Shown one piece after another: positions 18,669 through 23,596 of a stretch of 64,000 nt of DNA. Each line of letters begins with the position of its first letter. Position 1 is the stretch's first letter. The DNA comes from Enterococcus malodoratus ATCC 43197 (GTDB lineage: Bacteria; Bacillota; Bacilli; Lactobacillales; Enterococcaceae). The notes under the pieces are model-generated. The model had not been told where the DNA came from. It searched no databases and saw only the letters and a program-made list of their open reading frames with translations. The stretch is taken from positions 1,116,001 to 1,180,000 of the forward strand of contig NZ_KE136482.1 in NCBI RefSeq assembly GCF_000407185.1, given 5' to 3'. Both the position numbers and the translations under genes were made by a program.

Positions 18669-20474
18669 TTAAGCGTGACGACGTTTTTTATCAATGGCAA
18701 TTGCTGCTGTACCAATTGTGATAGCGCCAATTGCGATGATGATCATTAACATTGTGCCAGTGCCACCAGTGAATGGTAGTTTGGTTTGTGATTTATTTTC
18801 TACGTGCACAGTCACATCTGCTGGGTCAATTTTCACCGTCACTTTGATTGGATCTTTTAATAATTCAAAGCCATCTGGTGATTTTGTTTCCACTAACCAG
18901 TAATCTCTTTCAATATCTGCGTGTGACCAAGTTGGTTCATCTTTGTCTTGCTTTCCATTGGTGTTCGTATCTGTATACCAGTTCAGTGCTAACCCATCAA
19001 ATTGTGCATGACCACTAGCATCAGTCGTATCCGTTAAGAATGTCACCCCTGTTGGTAATGCCGGAGTGGCTGAACCATCGTCATTCAGGGTATACGATTC
19101 GCCATTCGATGCTAAGAACTTTTTATCTTTTGCATTTTGTTCACTAGTAGCAATATAGAATTCTGCACCGGCTAATTTCTGAGTCTTATCTTCTTCTGTC
19201 TTATCAATCGTGAATCCTCCATCAAAATATTCAGGATTATTTTCACTTGGAGTATCCACTGGCTTTTGACCAGGAATCAAATAACCAGTATTGAATTCAT
19301 TTTCGATTACTCCATTAAAATCTACATCTGTATGTGTATGATAGATGGCACGAATATCCGTATAGTTTCCTTCAACTTTCTTCATCCCGGCTTCTGTTAA
19401 CTCAATCTGAATGTCTGTTACCGCACCATTCGTATTAGTGATAGGATGAGCCGCCTCAGCAGTAGCACTACTATTTTTAAACACTTCATAATCTGTATTT
19501 AATGTTAGTTTCACCCAATTAGTACCATCAAAAACTTCAACCTCAACATCATCTAAATGAAGGGCTTTGTTAAGAGCATCATGAATATAGAAGTGATTAG
19601 CATAAACTTCATCACCCGCACTTACTGTTTTATCCGGTAATGCATTGCCGTCTTTGTCATATACGTTTGTGATTGTCATATCTTCTTTAGCTTCGAAATA
19701 CAACCCAGTTGGTAACTTAACAGAGGCTTCCCATTGGAAGGGTTGTCCAGCTTTAATGGAATAACCTTTTTGTCCTTCAACTGTTTTATCAGCAGAAGTA
19801 TCGTTGACAATATTCTTTGGATAAACATGTACGTCATAAATTAATTTGTCTTCATTGTCACGTTTGGTTTGTGGTAAATAAGCAAAGAATGGTGCCATCG
19901 GAGTTGCAACCTTTTTAGAATCACCATTTTCATCAGTATAGGTATAATCCCCGCTGCCATTCGGAACTTCACGGATCAGATAGATGCCATCCGTTGCTTT
20001 TCCATTACCAACATTAAAAGTAGTTTTACCAAAATTAGCTCCTGTTGTATGATCTCCAGTTTTTTGCTTAACTGCTGCGAAACTAGAGTCTACATCATAA
20101 TGTGTTCCTTCTACTTGCTTTGTAGGATCATCTAATTTGTAATAGTTACCCGAACCATCTTTCTTAGGAATAACGCGGACTATTTCAAATTCAACATCTC
20201 CCATTAGTTTTTTTCCAACTAGATCAGGAGCAGTTGCCGGATCTAATTTTTCACCGTCTCCACGTTCTCCCAATTCAGCTGAACTTTTAATTTCATATTT
20301 CCAAAGAGTAATCGTACGATCAGAAGTATTATCTGATAACGCATTAGTACTTACATATGGAATATCTGGTGTTGCATATGCAACTGATCCTAATCCAGCA
20401 CCCGCTGACCCCAATACTGTTAGTACCCCCAAAGTCATTGCTGCTTTACTTATCCACTTTTTCTTATTTTTCAT
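18669..20474 (-). CDS. major pilin (backbone subunit), LPFTGG
   Basis: 601 residues, the first gene of the operon. Signal peptide ending near VAYATP, N-terminal domain ending in the pilin motif VHVYPKN, whose Lys is the usual acceptor for sortase-made isopeptide bonds. A central domain and a C-terminal Cna-B-like domain follow, with the E-box YWLVETKSPDGFELL. LPFTGG, a hydrophobic segment and a KKRRHA tail end the protein. This is the SpaA/EbpC type of layout for a shaft pilin polymerised by class C sortase. AAGGAG precedes the ATG. A 250-bp leader separates it from the recombinase cassette at 20725. Confidence 0.9.
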   Translation of the reverse strand: MKNKKKWISKAAMTLGVLTVLGSAGAGLGSVAYATPDIPYVSTNALSDNTSDRTITLWKYEIKSSAELGERGDGEKLDPATAPDLVGKKLMGDVEFEIVRVIPKKDGSGNYYKLDDPTKQVEGTHYDVDSSFAAVKQKTGDHTTGANFGKTTFNVGNGKATDGIYLIREVPNGSGDYTYTDENGDSKKVATPMAPFFAYLPQTKRDNEDKLIYDVHVYPKNIVNDTSADKTVEGQKGYSIKAGQPFQWEASVKLPTGLYFEAKEDMTITNVYDKDGNALPDKTVSAGDEVYANHFYIHDALNKALHLDDVEVEVFDGTNWVKLTLNTDYEVFKNSSATAEAAHPITNTNGAVTDIQIELTEAGMKKVEGNYTDIRAIYHTHTDVDFNGVIENEFNTGYLIPGQKPVDTPSENNPEYFDGGFTIDKTEEDKTQKLAGAEFYIATSEQNAKDKKFLASNGESYTLNDDGSATPALPTGVTFLTDTTDASGHAQFDGLALNWYTDTNTNGKQDKDEPTWSHADIERDYWLVETKSPDGFELLKDPIKVTVKIDPADVTVHVENKSQTKLPFTGGTGTMLMIIIAIGAITIGTAAIAIDKKRRHA

Positions 20475-20724
20475 AATAAGCTCCTTTGCTCTTCTTTGTT
20501 TTTTATTCCTAAATTAGTTAAAATAGATGAAAAAGGTTGCCGCCATTTTTCAATCATTTATTTTCCATTACTTATAATGAAGATTTTTCTTCTTGGTAAT
20601 GGAAACCAATAAAAATTAGTATGTCTGTCCTTCGATAAACATACCTCCTTTCAAAATTTCCAATAAGTTCATCATTCTAGTTAAAACCCTTTATTTCCAG
20701 CATATGACTAACGTATTTTATTCT
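20475..20724 (-). promoter_or_regulatory. leader of the pilus operon
   Basis: Holds a weak leftward promoter candidate, TTACCA (20594-20599), 17 bp, TATAAG (20571-20576), and a hairpin GTATGT/ACATAC near 20620-20646. The leader continues into the left inverted repeat at 20725, so transcription could also enter from the recombinase cassette. Confidence 0.4.
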
Positions 20725-20746
20725 TAGTCTTACAAAAAACTAGAAA
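20725..20746 (+). repeat. left 22-bp inverted repeat of the recombinase cassette
   Basis: Begins TAGTCTTACAAAAAACTAG and is repeated without mismatch, in inverse orientation, at 22325-22346. It lies between the pilus leader and the integrase. Likely recombination site. Confidence 0.8.
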
Positions 20747-20789
20747 AGCCCTCAAATCCTTTTTGTATCAAAGGATTTGAGGACTTTTT
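20744..20789. terminator. terminator between integrase and pilus operon
   Basis: Stem CCTCAAATCCTT/AAGGATTTGAGG with T-rich ends on both strands. It ends leftward integrase transcription just before the left inverted repeat and insulates the pilus genes in the drawn orientation. Confidence 0.8.
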
Positions 20790-20977
20790 GACGACGAATG
20801 ACGGCTAAAATTTTTTACGATTATTATTTGTACTTTATATTTATTGAGAACCCTCCTTTTTAAAGTATTTCTTTCTTTTGATAAAAAAAGCACCCAAAGT
20901 AAGCGCTTACTCTGAAAAAGAAAAAGAAATACACCAAAAGTTCATTATTTCTTTTTTGAAACCAGTTACATCCTTCG

Positions 20978-22081
20978 TCAACTGATCAAACGATCTAATT
21001 CCTTGATCACCCGGTGTCTTTGCTCCAGCATTGCATCCACATACGTATCTAGCGTCATTTGTGTCGATGCGTGCCCTAAAAGAGCGCTCACAGAAGAAAT
21101 ATCTTTATTAGCTTCCAGACAGCGTGTCGCAAAGGTGTGTCTTAGTTGATGAAAATGAATGTTAACAAGTTCAGCTTTTTTGCGAATCCGATGAAAATGA
21201 TGAGTCAATAAGCGCGGTTCACAGGGTTGCCCGTTTACTGAGAAGACAAAAGGCCCTTTTGTTTGCTTACGATGAGTTACTAGTAATTTTTTTAGCGTCT
21301 TACTGATTGGAATCACCCGGATAGACGCTTCTGTTTTGGAATCTGCTAAAAGCAGTTGTGTTTTTTTCGACGGACCTATCATGGAGATTCGTTGATACGT
21401 GTGATTGACATAGATTAGATTGGCCTCAAAATCAATGTTCTCCCATTTTAAAGCGGCAATTTCACCAATGCGCATCCCAGAATACAAGGCTAATAGGGCA
21501 GGAATTCCATGGCCTTTCTTTTCTTTGGTGGCGGTTTCCATCATTCTTTTTTGTTCTGATCGTGTTAATGCTCGGATTTTATTCTGTTTAGCCTTTGGTA
21601 TCTTTAATTCAGAAAATGGATTCATTGTAAGCTTTCCGCATTTTTTTGCATGATTCAAACATTTATTAAGGATTCGAAAGACGACTTGGACAGTTGATTT
21701 AGCCAATTTTTTCTGAAGTTCACTAAGCACATTTTTTCCAATTTCAATTGATAACTCATTCAAGGGGATATCTTTTAGTGTAGGAAAAATATATTTCGTC
21801 AGCTTATAATAGTAACTAGACAATGTGGATGGTTTTACCTCATCCTGCACCTCTATTAGCCATTCCGATGTCCATTCCTCGAAGGTTTCGGCTGAATGAC
21901 CTTGAATTTGCTGCAAAGATTGATAATGGATGCGTAACGGATAAAGCTTTCTTTTTACTTCGGAATAATTCTTTCCATATATATAGCCGTACTTTATTCT
22001 CCCGTCGCTTTTTCTTCCTTTTGGAAAACGACCTTCCCAGCGACCATCTTTTCGCAGATAAATATTCTCACCTTTTCGCAC
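20978..22081 (-). CDS. tyrosine recombinase, likely DNA invertase of the pilus switch
   Basis: 367 residues when started at GTG 22081, which has TTGGAGG upstream and gives the same N-terminus as the paralogue at 1-73; a TTG at 22096 is the longer alternative. Order: short arm-binding-type N-terminus (KGENIYLRKDGRWEGR), SAM-like core-binding domain (about 60-160), catalytic domain with Arg in SGMRIGEIAALKW, His-x-x-Arg in HQLRHTF, His in LLGHAS and the nucleophile Tyr in TLDTYVD. All catalytic residues are present. Similar proteins integrate phages and conjugative elements, but no other mobile-element gene is nearby and the flanking repeats are inverted, which favours inversion over integration. 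TGACGGC-like motifs at both ends (20789-20806, 22101-22122) may be arm sites. Confidence 0.88.
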   Translation of the reverse strand: MRKGENIYLRKDGRWEGRFPKGRKSDGRIKYGYIYGKNYSEVKRKLYPLRIHYQSLQQIQGHSAETFEEWTSEWLIEVQDEVKPSTLSSYYYKLTKYIFPTLKDIPLNELSIEIGKNVLSELQKKLAKSTVQVVFRILNKCLNHAKKCGKLTMNPFSELKIPKAKQNKIRALTRSEQKRMMETATKEKKGHGIPALLALYSGMRIGEIAALKWENIDFEANLIYVNHTYQRISMIGPSKKTQLLLADSKTEASIRVIPISKTLKKLLVTHRKQTKGPFVFSVNGQPCEPRLLTHHFHRIRKKAELVNIHFHQLRHTFATRCLEANKDISSVSALLGHASTQMTLDTYVDAMLEQRHRVIKELDRLIS

Positions 22082-22230
22082 TACTATTTCCTCCAATTTT
22101 TGACGGCGTAACAGACGGCGTATACTAGGTTTCTTTTCATTTTTATCTTTACAATAATACAGTAATGAATAGATACGTCTTAGTTTGTTATCATCGCTTT
22201 ATTTAAAAATAATTATTTTTATGAATCATA

Positions 22231-22259
22231 TTGCCTATTATTAACCAATAATATATAAT
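22231..22259 (+). promoter_or_regulatory. outward promoter of the invertible cassette
   Basis: TTGCCT (22231-22236), 17-bp spacer, TATAAT (22254-22259). It fires rightward out of the cassette, 66 bp before the right inverted repeat, and in this orientation runs into the terminator at 22405-22442. After inversion it would fire into the pilus operon. Confidence 0.6.
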
Positions 22260-22324
22260 TGCCTTATGAAATGATTTTTATATATCAAACAAATAAGTTA
22301 ATATATTTCAATTAGTTCCAAACA

Positions 22325-22346
22325 TTTCTAGTTTTTTGTAAGACTA
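22325..22346 (-). repeat. right 22-bp inverted repeat of the recombinase cassette
   Basis: Exact reverse complement of 20725-20746, ending in TTTTTTGTAAGACTA. The 1.58 kb between the repeats holds only the integrase, one terminator and the outward promoter. Confidence 0.8.
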
Positions 22347-22404
22347 GGTAAGTATTTGAATACTTTTCAAAGAAGATAAGCCACTATCTTCAAAGAAGGC
22401 AGAC

Positions 22405-22442
22405 AAAAGGCATCCTTTCAACGGCAGAAAAGATGCTTTTTT
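22405..22442 (+). terminator. rightward terminator downstream of the cassette
   Basis: Stem AAGGCATC/GATGCTTTT followed by a T-run. It would stop transcripts from the promoter at 22231-22259. 22443-22570 holds nothing else I can name. Confidence 0.55.
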
Positions 22443-22570
22443 ATTATATGTTCATAACATGACAGTAACATTTTTACCACAAAATAAATCAATTAATTTA
22501 TTTCCACTTTTGCAATCAAATAATCACTATATTTTTATGTTTTAATGATAACGATCGTTTTTTTTGAATA

Positions 22571-22601
22571 AAAAAAGACGCCCCTCTTGGACGTCTCTTT
22601 T
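22571..22601 (-). terminator. terminator of the PTS/ADP-ribosylglycohydrolase operon
   Basis: Imperfect stem 22577-22582/22589-22595 (GACGCC with GGACGTC) with a T-run on the minus strand, just past the stop codon at 22613. Confidence 0.7.
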
Positions 22602-22612
22602 ACTATTCATTT

Positions 22613-23596
22613 CTACTTCACATACGGCAATAATTCTTCCGTCAATTGATCAAAATCTAACTGATTGACCTCTTCAATTTGCTGGATCATTTCTTTTGGC
22701 AGAGTTGGATTCATTCCTCCGCAAATCGCTGCGCTGATGGCTCCGATGGTATCGGTATCCCAACCGACTGACGCACTTAATTGTGCGGCTTTTAATGGAT
22801 CACCTTTGGCTAATTCCACGATGACAAATGCGCTTGGAATTGTTTCGATCGTCTCCATTCCGGTACCGATCTCTTCATATAAGCGTTGGAGAATCAGTTG
22901 TTCGTCTTCTTCTTGACGCAGGATCTTTCGTGCTTGATTCATGCGGAAGCTTAAAGACGCTGCTGGAAAATCATACCCGTATTCTTTGGCGGTATTAATC
23001 GCTTCAAAGGCCAACGACCATATCTCTGCGATTGATTGGCCGCCTCGAACGGTGTAGCTAACGGCTGCTGCTACCGCACCGGCACCGGCGATCGCGATCT
23101 TTGTATTATGCGTTGGTAAACAGATTTCCGCGACATTTTTTACTAGTGCAGGCAAATCGTGATAGTCGCTGATTAAGCCGATGGGCGCAATTTTCATCGA
23201 AGCACCATTCGTTGTTCCCGTGACACCTGTTTCCTCGATCGGCACACCTTGGGCGATTTTTTCTAACGCTTTTAGTGTCGACGGTCCTGAGACAAAGGCT
23301 GAAACGGGAGAATGGTCGTTCCATTCCCGCAGCTCTGCGATGTAATCTGCCACTCGGATCTGTCCCTGGTTTTTCTTGATCATAGATAGGATCATCAAGA
23401 CGTTCAATGTGTCATCGGTGATTGCTCCTGCTGCCATTTTACGACCAAAGACGTCATTTTCGTTTGAGGCGATTAATTCCGTTACTCCGTTGGGAAAATG
23501 CTGGCGGATTTTTTCTTGCGACCAGCATTCTGTCGGCATTCCTAGCGCGTCCCCTAATGCTCCGCCTGCTAAAACGCCCCAAATTCTCTCTCTCAT
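22613..23596 (-). CDS. ADP-ribosylglycohydrolase family protein
   Basis: 327 residues of the DraG/ARH fold, which hydrolyses ADP-ribose links or related N-/O-glycosidic bonds using two Mg ions. The metal motifs are visible: GALGDALGMPTE at the N-terminus, AGAITDDT at about 57-64 and VGWDTDTIGAISAAICGG near the C-terminus. No signal peptide. It starts 1 bp after the stop of the PTS gene, so the two are translated from one message. Its substrate may be a sugar or nucleoside derivative taken up by that PTS rather than a modified protein; that is inference from the operon. Confidence 0.88.
   Translation of the reverse strand: MRERIWGVLAGGALGDALGMPTECWSQEKIRQHFPNGVTELIASNENDVFGRKMAAGAITDDTLNVLMILSMIKKNQGQIRVADYIAELREWNDHSPVSAFVSGPSTLKALEKIAQGVPIEETGVTGTTNGASMKIAPIGLISDYHDLPALVKNVAEICLPTHNTKIAIAGAGAVAAAVSYTVRGGQSIAEIWSLAFEAINTAKEYGYDFPAASLSFRMNQARKILRQEEDEQLILQRLYEEIGTGMETIETIPSAFVIVELAKGDPLKAAQLSASVGWDTDTIGAISAAICGGMNPTLPKEMIQQIEEVNQLDFDQLTEELLPYVK

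Follow-up and report, generated by a model that had tools for sequence, protein, structure and literature searches.

The DNA analysed here, termed the window in what follows, is a stretch of 64,000 nucleotides (G000:C2:1116001-1180000), in which a pilus operon lies to the left of a cassette of about 1.6 kb and reads away from it (Table 1). The operon starts with the major pilin gene and continues, after the sortase, with genes for a 735-aa glucosaminidase/CHAP protein, a signal peptidase and further products. The cassette is bounded by two inverted repeats, complementary at 22/22 bases and separated by 1578 nt, which are the only matches in the 64-kb window when up to 3 mismatches are allowed; 100 shuffles gave 0. 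The perfect 22-bp repeats of the original prediction were thus borne out, as was the location of the recombinase inside its own switch, since its gene lies between them. In this interval, the list of ORFs of at least 80 aa has two entries only, the recombinase and, antisense to its gene, an ORF of 101 aa; no further mobility gene was seen. At this locus, a promoter between inverted recombination sites adjoins a surface operon.

Table 1. Features of the pilus operon and the adjoining cassette (window coordinates)
Feature	Position	Strand	Basis or remark
Double class C sortase, 581 aa	11095..12840	-	
Small pilin-like protein, 245 aa	12950..13687	-	
Large LPXTG surface protein, putative tip adhesin, 1650 aa	13689..18641	-	
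Major pilin, SpaH/EbpB family, LPFTG	18669..20474	-	First gene of operon
Leader element of pilus operon (SD, ATG, stem)	20619..20648	-	Outside the putative invertible segment
Left inverted repeat / crossover site	20725..20746	+	Spacer TTACAAA at 20730-20736
Intrinsic terminator after recombinase, abutting left repeat	20744..20788	-	19 pairs; folding z -6.8
Paired CGTC motifs, 10-bp period, inside left repeat	20790..20805	-	Candidate arm-type sites
cre-like palindrome AGTAAGCGCTTACT after recombinase stop	20898..20911		Inside the putative invertible segment
Tyrosine recombinase, 367 aa, GTG start	20978..22081	-	Pfam, alignment, predicted fold
Paired CGTC motifs, 12-bp period, just upstream of recombinase start	22102..22119	-	Candidate arm-type sites
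Outward promoter TTGCCT-17-TATAAT	22231..22259	+	Motif scan; conservation in relatives
Right inverted repeat / crossover site	22325..22346	-	Same spacer (TTTGTAA on +, 22335-22341)
Hairpin terminator beyond right repeat, where the promoter now points	22410..22436		Terminator scan

The recombinase matches the Pfam model Phage_integrase (E 3.8e-27), and no NCBIfam model reached its cut-off. The start given in the ORF list is a TTG at 22096; the GTG at 22081 has a good Shine-Dalgarno sequence and aligns with the ATG of the relatives, and for this reason the gene is read as 20978-22081. Residues R204, K249, H311, R314, H337 and Y347, which we take to be the catalytic residues of the enzyme, show no variation in either of two 23-sequence alignments that include the window sequence, in agreement with the complete catalytic set predicted earlier. 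The predicted fold shows an N-terminal sheet-helix domain (mean pLDDT 89.6), and its best matches are the integrases of Tn1549 and lambda. Pfam recognised the core and SAM-like domains without the arm domain, so that the arm-type N-terminal domain is taken from the predicted fold; this domain and the fold matches make the paired CGTC motifs candidate arm-binding sites for the recombinase. The closest named relatives of the protein belong to Enterococcus.

A homologue search in 60 genomes, the own genome included, at E <= 1e-60 showed that this recombinase forms a large family, present in 16/60 genomes, with highest copy numbers of 27, 26, 20, 14 and 10; the single locus seen by the original prediction is one of its members. 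In all, 150 recombinase hits were located, seven plasmid loci included, from which six duplicates on E. raffinosus plasmids were removed; 142 of the 143 genome places (a single match in genome G056 was left out) and two plasmid records made up the set of 144 cassettes, denoted by L numbers. A flanking repeat pair scoring at least 13 was found in 120/144 cassettes, as against 8/426 shuffled controls (five scoring 13, two 14 and one 19), and in the remaining 24 such a pair was absent, in some of them since the contig ends there. The distance from repeat to repeat is mostly 1.5-1.7 kb. The own genome has four cassettes. The 5' end of a second one occupies positions 1-320 of the window (recombinase G000:C2:1114973-1116073, minus strand; right repeat at approximately 296-320), and its operon, located to the left of the window, appears WxL-like by motif test, with no Pfam match for its first gene; a third cassette, at C2:1101058 (L047), precedes a Pfam WxL gene.

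The inner features of the cassette are conserved to different degrees. Taken alone, promoter-like sites occur in this region about as often as chance would give (19 found versus 15.8 in shuffles), and the weight of the outward promoter, found exactly as predicted, is accordingly drawn from its conservation: an outward TATAAT occurs within 130 nt of the 5' repeat in 86/120 cassettes, mostly at 50-67 nt from it, as compared with 22/120 on the opposite strand and a mean of 42 (maximum 54) in shuffles, the exact hexamer being missing in 34/120. CGTC pairs are present on the 5' side in 115/120 cassettes, on the 3' side in 102/120 and on both sides in 100/120, when shuffles lead to an expectation of 0.1 and 0.4 for the 5' and 3' sides, respectively. 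The terminator predicted beside the left repeat was also found; in the family, a terminator is detected by folding (z < -2) in only 30/120 cassettes; beside the 3' repeat it is clear for the majority of the closely related pilus and accessory-Sec cassettes, and it is lacking in L055. At the place of the second predicted terminator (22405-22442), the scan calls the hairpin of Table 1 on the minus strand, and on the plus strand a T-run also follows it. Furthermore, a site with at most 2 mismatches to the cre consensus follows the recombinase gene in 71/120 cassettes (2.6 expected from shuffles), though this is not always the same site, and the palindrome core AAGCGCTT is found in 41/120 and in 0 of the shuffles. 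Such a palindrome might link switching to carbon catabolite control via CcpA.

Each repeat can be described as a dyad of half-sites around a spacer, for which a length of 7 nt gave the best fit in 99/114 sites (29/143 loci were left out of this fit). In the 99 loci with a 7-nt fit, the two spacers differ at 2/693 positions and the half-sites at 222/1584. As the exact-repeat finder could favour matching spacers, a separate spacer-blind scan of the flanks was performed with a leave-one-out half-site matrix, ignoring the spacer and treating each flank separately; the matrix was trained on 88 loci, excluding the tested locus and keeping close duplicates in, and 124 loci were scanned, the other 20/144 having too little flank. 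In 116/116 loci with a good site on either side, the window locus (TTACAAA at both sites, with scores of 15.1 and 15.9) among them, the two spacers were identical. Over all scanned loci the figure is 118/124, and in the remaining 6 at least one of the sites was weak; in a mismatched-pair control, with sites taken from different loci, 0.8% were identical. In L173, L178, L174, L064 and others the repeat is too short for the exact finder, and the matrix scan still gave identical spacers. Strand exchange between the paired sites of a locus would be expected to maintain such identity.

Between loci, most spacers are private. In 105/116 loci the spacer is unshared with the other scored cassettes of the same genome, the two richest genomes have 23/25 and 15/17 distinct spacers, and the four cassettes of the own genome have four different ones. 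Two cassettes of one genome (L157 and L159, G011), 96.5% identical, have the spacers TTAACAA and TTACGAA, which differ at two of the seven bases, each being the same at both ends; the ends therefore change together. Other close pairs (L187 and L192; L188 and L193) keep the same spacer. Among the 116 matched loci, 7/668 pairs of cassettes from the same genome share a spacer, as compared with 2.5 expected from independent columns and base composition; sharing is thus no rarer than chance and may even exceed it, with close duplicates as part of the reason. Moreover, for recombinases that are at least 80% identical, the spacers agree in 3/17 pairs from the same genome and 5/22 from different genomes, with no clear difference. 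On these figures, selection for different spacers is unestablished.

The orientation of the cassettes has been assessed by flank homology. In 127/144 cassettes the 3' flank resembles the 3' flank of another cassette, so that their recombinases are directed towards operons of a common type, and in this common orientation the promoter is directed away from the operon; in one of them, L170, the 5' flank also matches the 3' flank of L226. By this test, one cassette, L194, is inverted, and 16/144 could not be scored. The operon side of L194 is collinear with that of L196, from another genome, with 94.8% identity over 6687 bp up to the repeat; between the repeats the two cassettes match at 87% in opposite orientation, and a further 88 bp, at the far repeat and past it, match again. 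Both orientations have thus been seen in the family, and the window copy is known in the assembled orientation alone. Among the unscorable cassettes is L059 (G007:C1:846742), a decayed copy with a broken recombinase and no recognised surface operon alongside, which is reversed relative to the partner-gene side described below.

Comparison of individual loci between records gave no orientation difference for the accessory-Sec locus in four E. raffinosus megaplasmids, nor for the WxL locus (L116, L153 and NZ_CP072889); of two further queries, L246 gave no plasmid match and L115 its own record only. The recombinase, the promoter and the inner sites are all carried along when the segment inverts, and the strong orientation bias should accordingly stem from selection, an influence of sequence outside the segment, or infrequent expression of the recombinase. 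In 24 of the 98 cassettes located on draft contigs, the contig ends no more than 650 bp from the gene; this end is inside the repeat in 6 (L050, L053, L182, L206, L220 and L224) and outside it in 18/24. The ends inside repeats are suggestive of assemblies broken by mixed orientations; paralogous repeats can also produce contig ends.

Downstream of the cassettes, SpaA-type pilins, WxL operons, accessory-Sec operons and signal-peptidase and DivIVA-like operons were found, as well as a collagen-binding LPXTG protein and BspA-type repeat proteins; the survey relied on simple tests for signals and motifs in the first three genes, with a family search on some genes only. In an Enterococcus faecalis plasmid predicted to be mobilizable (LR962555.1, L117), a 44% identical recombinase is flanked by near-perfect inverted repeats, and a 1554-aa LPXTG protein is encoded 1.6 kb downstream of it.

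On the promoter-facing side, a survey of the 125 cassettes with at least 1.9 kb upstream identified a gene family in 37 distinct cassettes (43 ORF hits), each member pointing away from the cassette. Its products have about 240 aa and a weak match to ComK (L047:5195-5920, L292:1279-2013 and others). Lying on that side and pointing away, such a gene would be driven by the promoter in the common orientation. Four PF06338 (ComK) matches in genome G012 coincide with these partner genes, just one of them above the cut-off; hmmscan of eight partner homologues placed one above it (L292, 23.9 versus 22.3 bits), and hhalign of seven members against three ComK-type proteins gave a weak match (probability 24%, E 8e-4). 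These scores faintly suggest that the partner family could be related to ComK. Beside the window cassette no such gene was found, the promoter there facing the hairpin and a convergent ADP-ribosylglycohydrolase gene.

As regards the leader of the pilus operon, the sequence GAAAGGAGGTATGTTTATCGAAGGACAGACATAC is common to nine aligned pilus leaders with few changes, and could represent either a short ORF with its own Shine-Dalgarno sequence (MFIEGQTY) or an RNA hairpin. In the 60 genomes it was found 11 times, in 4/60; nine occurrences are the aligned leaders, and the other two (G011:C63 and C71) also precede major-pilin homologues. A search of 20400-22700 against Rfam gave 14 matches, every one under the gathering score of its family. 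The weak promoter that had been proposed in the leader (20571-20599), as a source of basal pilus expression, did not survive the comparison: its TATAAG hexamer is not conserved across the nine leaders, and it was consequently dropped and is not counted here.

Taken with the inner recombinase and promoter, the conserved repeats, the 116/116 matched spacers and the inversion of L194 exactly at its repeats support the phase switch originally proposed, and the window locus is very probably a self-contained invertible promoter. Points against it are the nearly uniform orientation of the cassettes, the unchanged orientation at the accessory-Sec and WxL loci compared, and the part of the family in which a clear terminator, an exact outward TATAAT or a scoring repeat pair is missing. 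According to this model, the recombinase would join the two inverted crossover sites and flip the 1.6-kb segment with its own gene, promoter and terminator. In the assembled orientation the promoter would point away from the pilus operon, which the terminator would insulate (OFF); once flipped, the promoter would read through the left repeat into the leader and the major pilin gene (ON). The pilus is probably OFF in this assembly, since 127/144 cassettes share the one orientation in which the promoter points away from the operon. The conserved outward promoter suggests that the inverted state would be the ON state, and from the sequence evidence the window copy would be expected to flip today.

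Integrases are common, with 23 Phage_integrase matches in the own genome, and inverted repeats might come to lie beside one by chance; the shuffles (0 matches in 100) and the repeat pairs that flank homologous recombinases in 120/144 cassettes already refute this explanation, whose probability is practically nil. An integrase of the Tn1549/lambda class could also have arrived, together with the repeats, as part of a mobile element of which the repeats were the ends, and be idle at present. In favour of this, the island is accessory: five relatives have the right-hand neighbour genes of the window at 77-81%, and none of the cassette places from the homologue search is located within 40 kb of those genes. 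A broken recombinase in one relative, L059, also speaks for a relic. The window's own locus was not found in another strain by megablast, whose matches in five E. raffinosus megaplasmids (approximately 81%) extend over the right-hand neighbour genes only, and in E. gilvus over a MarR gene only. However, the spacers match in 116/116 loci, among which recombinase identity goes down to 36%; the 3' flank is like that of another cassette in 127/144; between the repeats, the recombinase and the 101-aa antisense ORF stand alone; and a flipped copy, L194, exists. A relic is thus highly unlikely.

A reversed or two-way polarity is unlikely as well, if somewhat less so: the outward promoter would drive the gene on the other side in the orientation assembled, and the surface operon would be on from its leader. 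The weak-ComK family on the promoter-facing side of 37 cassettes, pointing away, and the strong orientation bias both fit this arrangement; at the window, however, the promoter faces a hairpin and a convergent gene, and the proposed leader promoter is unconserved in the nine aligned pilus leaders. The phase switch that turns the pilus on by inversion remains the preferred reading.

Several known systems share part of this organization. In the E. coli fim switch, a tyrosine recombinase (FimB/FimE) flips a promoter before pilus genes; unlike the window, the segment has 314 bp, the recombinases lie outside it and have no arm-type domain, and the pili are of the chaperone-usher type. The Salmonella Hin switch has the invertase gene inside its own invertible segment, which carries a promoter. 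The window recombinase is likewise found inside the segment that it would invert, but belongs to the tyrosine family (Pfam Phage_integrase), whereas Hin is a serine recombinase. Mpi of Bacteroides fragilis and RecV of C. difficile, as far as the sources available describe them, resemble the family in that several invertible switches exist per genome, surface genes included. With Mpi and RecV, one recombinase acts on many sites; in the window family, by contrast, a separate recombinase comes with every cassette, in most cases together with a spacer of its own. The integrases of Tn916/Tn1549 and lambda, which integrate and excise elements, share with the window recombinase, according to its predicted fold, the N-terminal arm-type, SAM-like and catalytic domains; at the window, inversion is the expected product because the crossover sites are inverted.

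A Gram-positive precedent is the switch of SZO08560 in Streptococcus equi subsp. zooepidemicus H70, where, in the part of the report available (PMC2654543), a promoter lies between inverted repeats before the gene for an LPXTG protein, with a recombinase gene adjacent and five reads in reverse orientation. It differs from the window in its segment of ~115 bp, its 10-bp repeats and its recombinase outside the segment, and it concerns one locus and a single surface protein, without a sortase pilus operon. As regards surveys, the available portions of two of them give a median of 0 invertons per genome for the Bacillus-like Firmicutes of one defined community, the string 'Enterococc' being absent from that main text (PMC11892184), and 14 Clostridia and 1 Bacilli among the 15 positive Firmicutes samples (PMC5903667). 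Enterococcal hsdS phasevarions are mentioned in the accessible part of PMC9779914, and PsrA inversions in S. pneumoniae in that of PMC7096588. No description of the cassette family was recognised in a literature search that had most subscription journals outside its reach. What is new is a lambda-type tyrosine recombinase located inside its own segment and multiplied in one genus and its relatives, with mostly private spacers.

These results point to a wider, tentative picture, to which we give slightly less than even chances: enterococci and their relatives may have genome-wide sets of independent self-inverting switches, each with its own recombinase and mostly with a private 7-nt spacer changing in concert at both ends, such that around 25 paralogous switches would flip without cross-recombining, and about 30% of the loci would toggle a surface operon against a ComK-like regulator. 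The two surveys, as far as those sources go, found few invertons in Bacilli, as compared with up to 27 recombinase copies in the related genomes analysed here; most of these copies belong to cassettes that precede operons for pili, WxL proteins, accessory-Sec systems and other surface products. Should these switches be active, many combinations of surface structures could be displayed by one clone. Furthermore, the spacers constitute a natural set of sites with which to study to what extent a tyrosine recombinase depends on identical spacers and what keeps related switches from reacting with one another.
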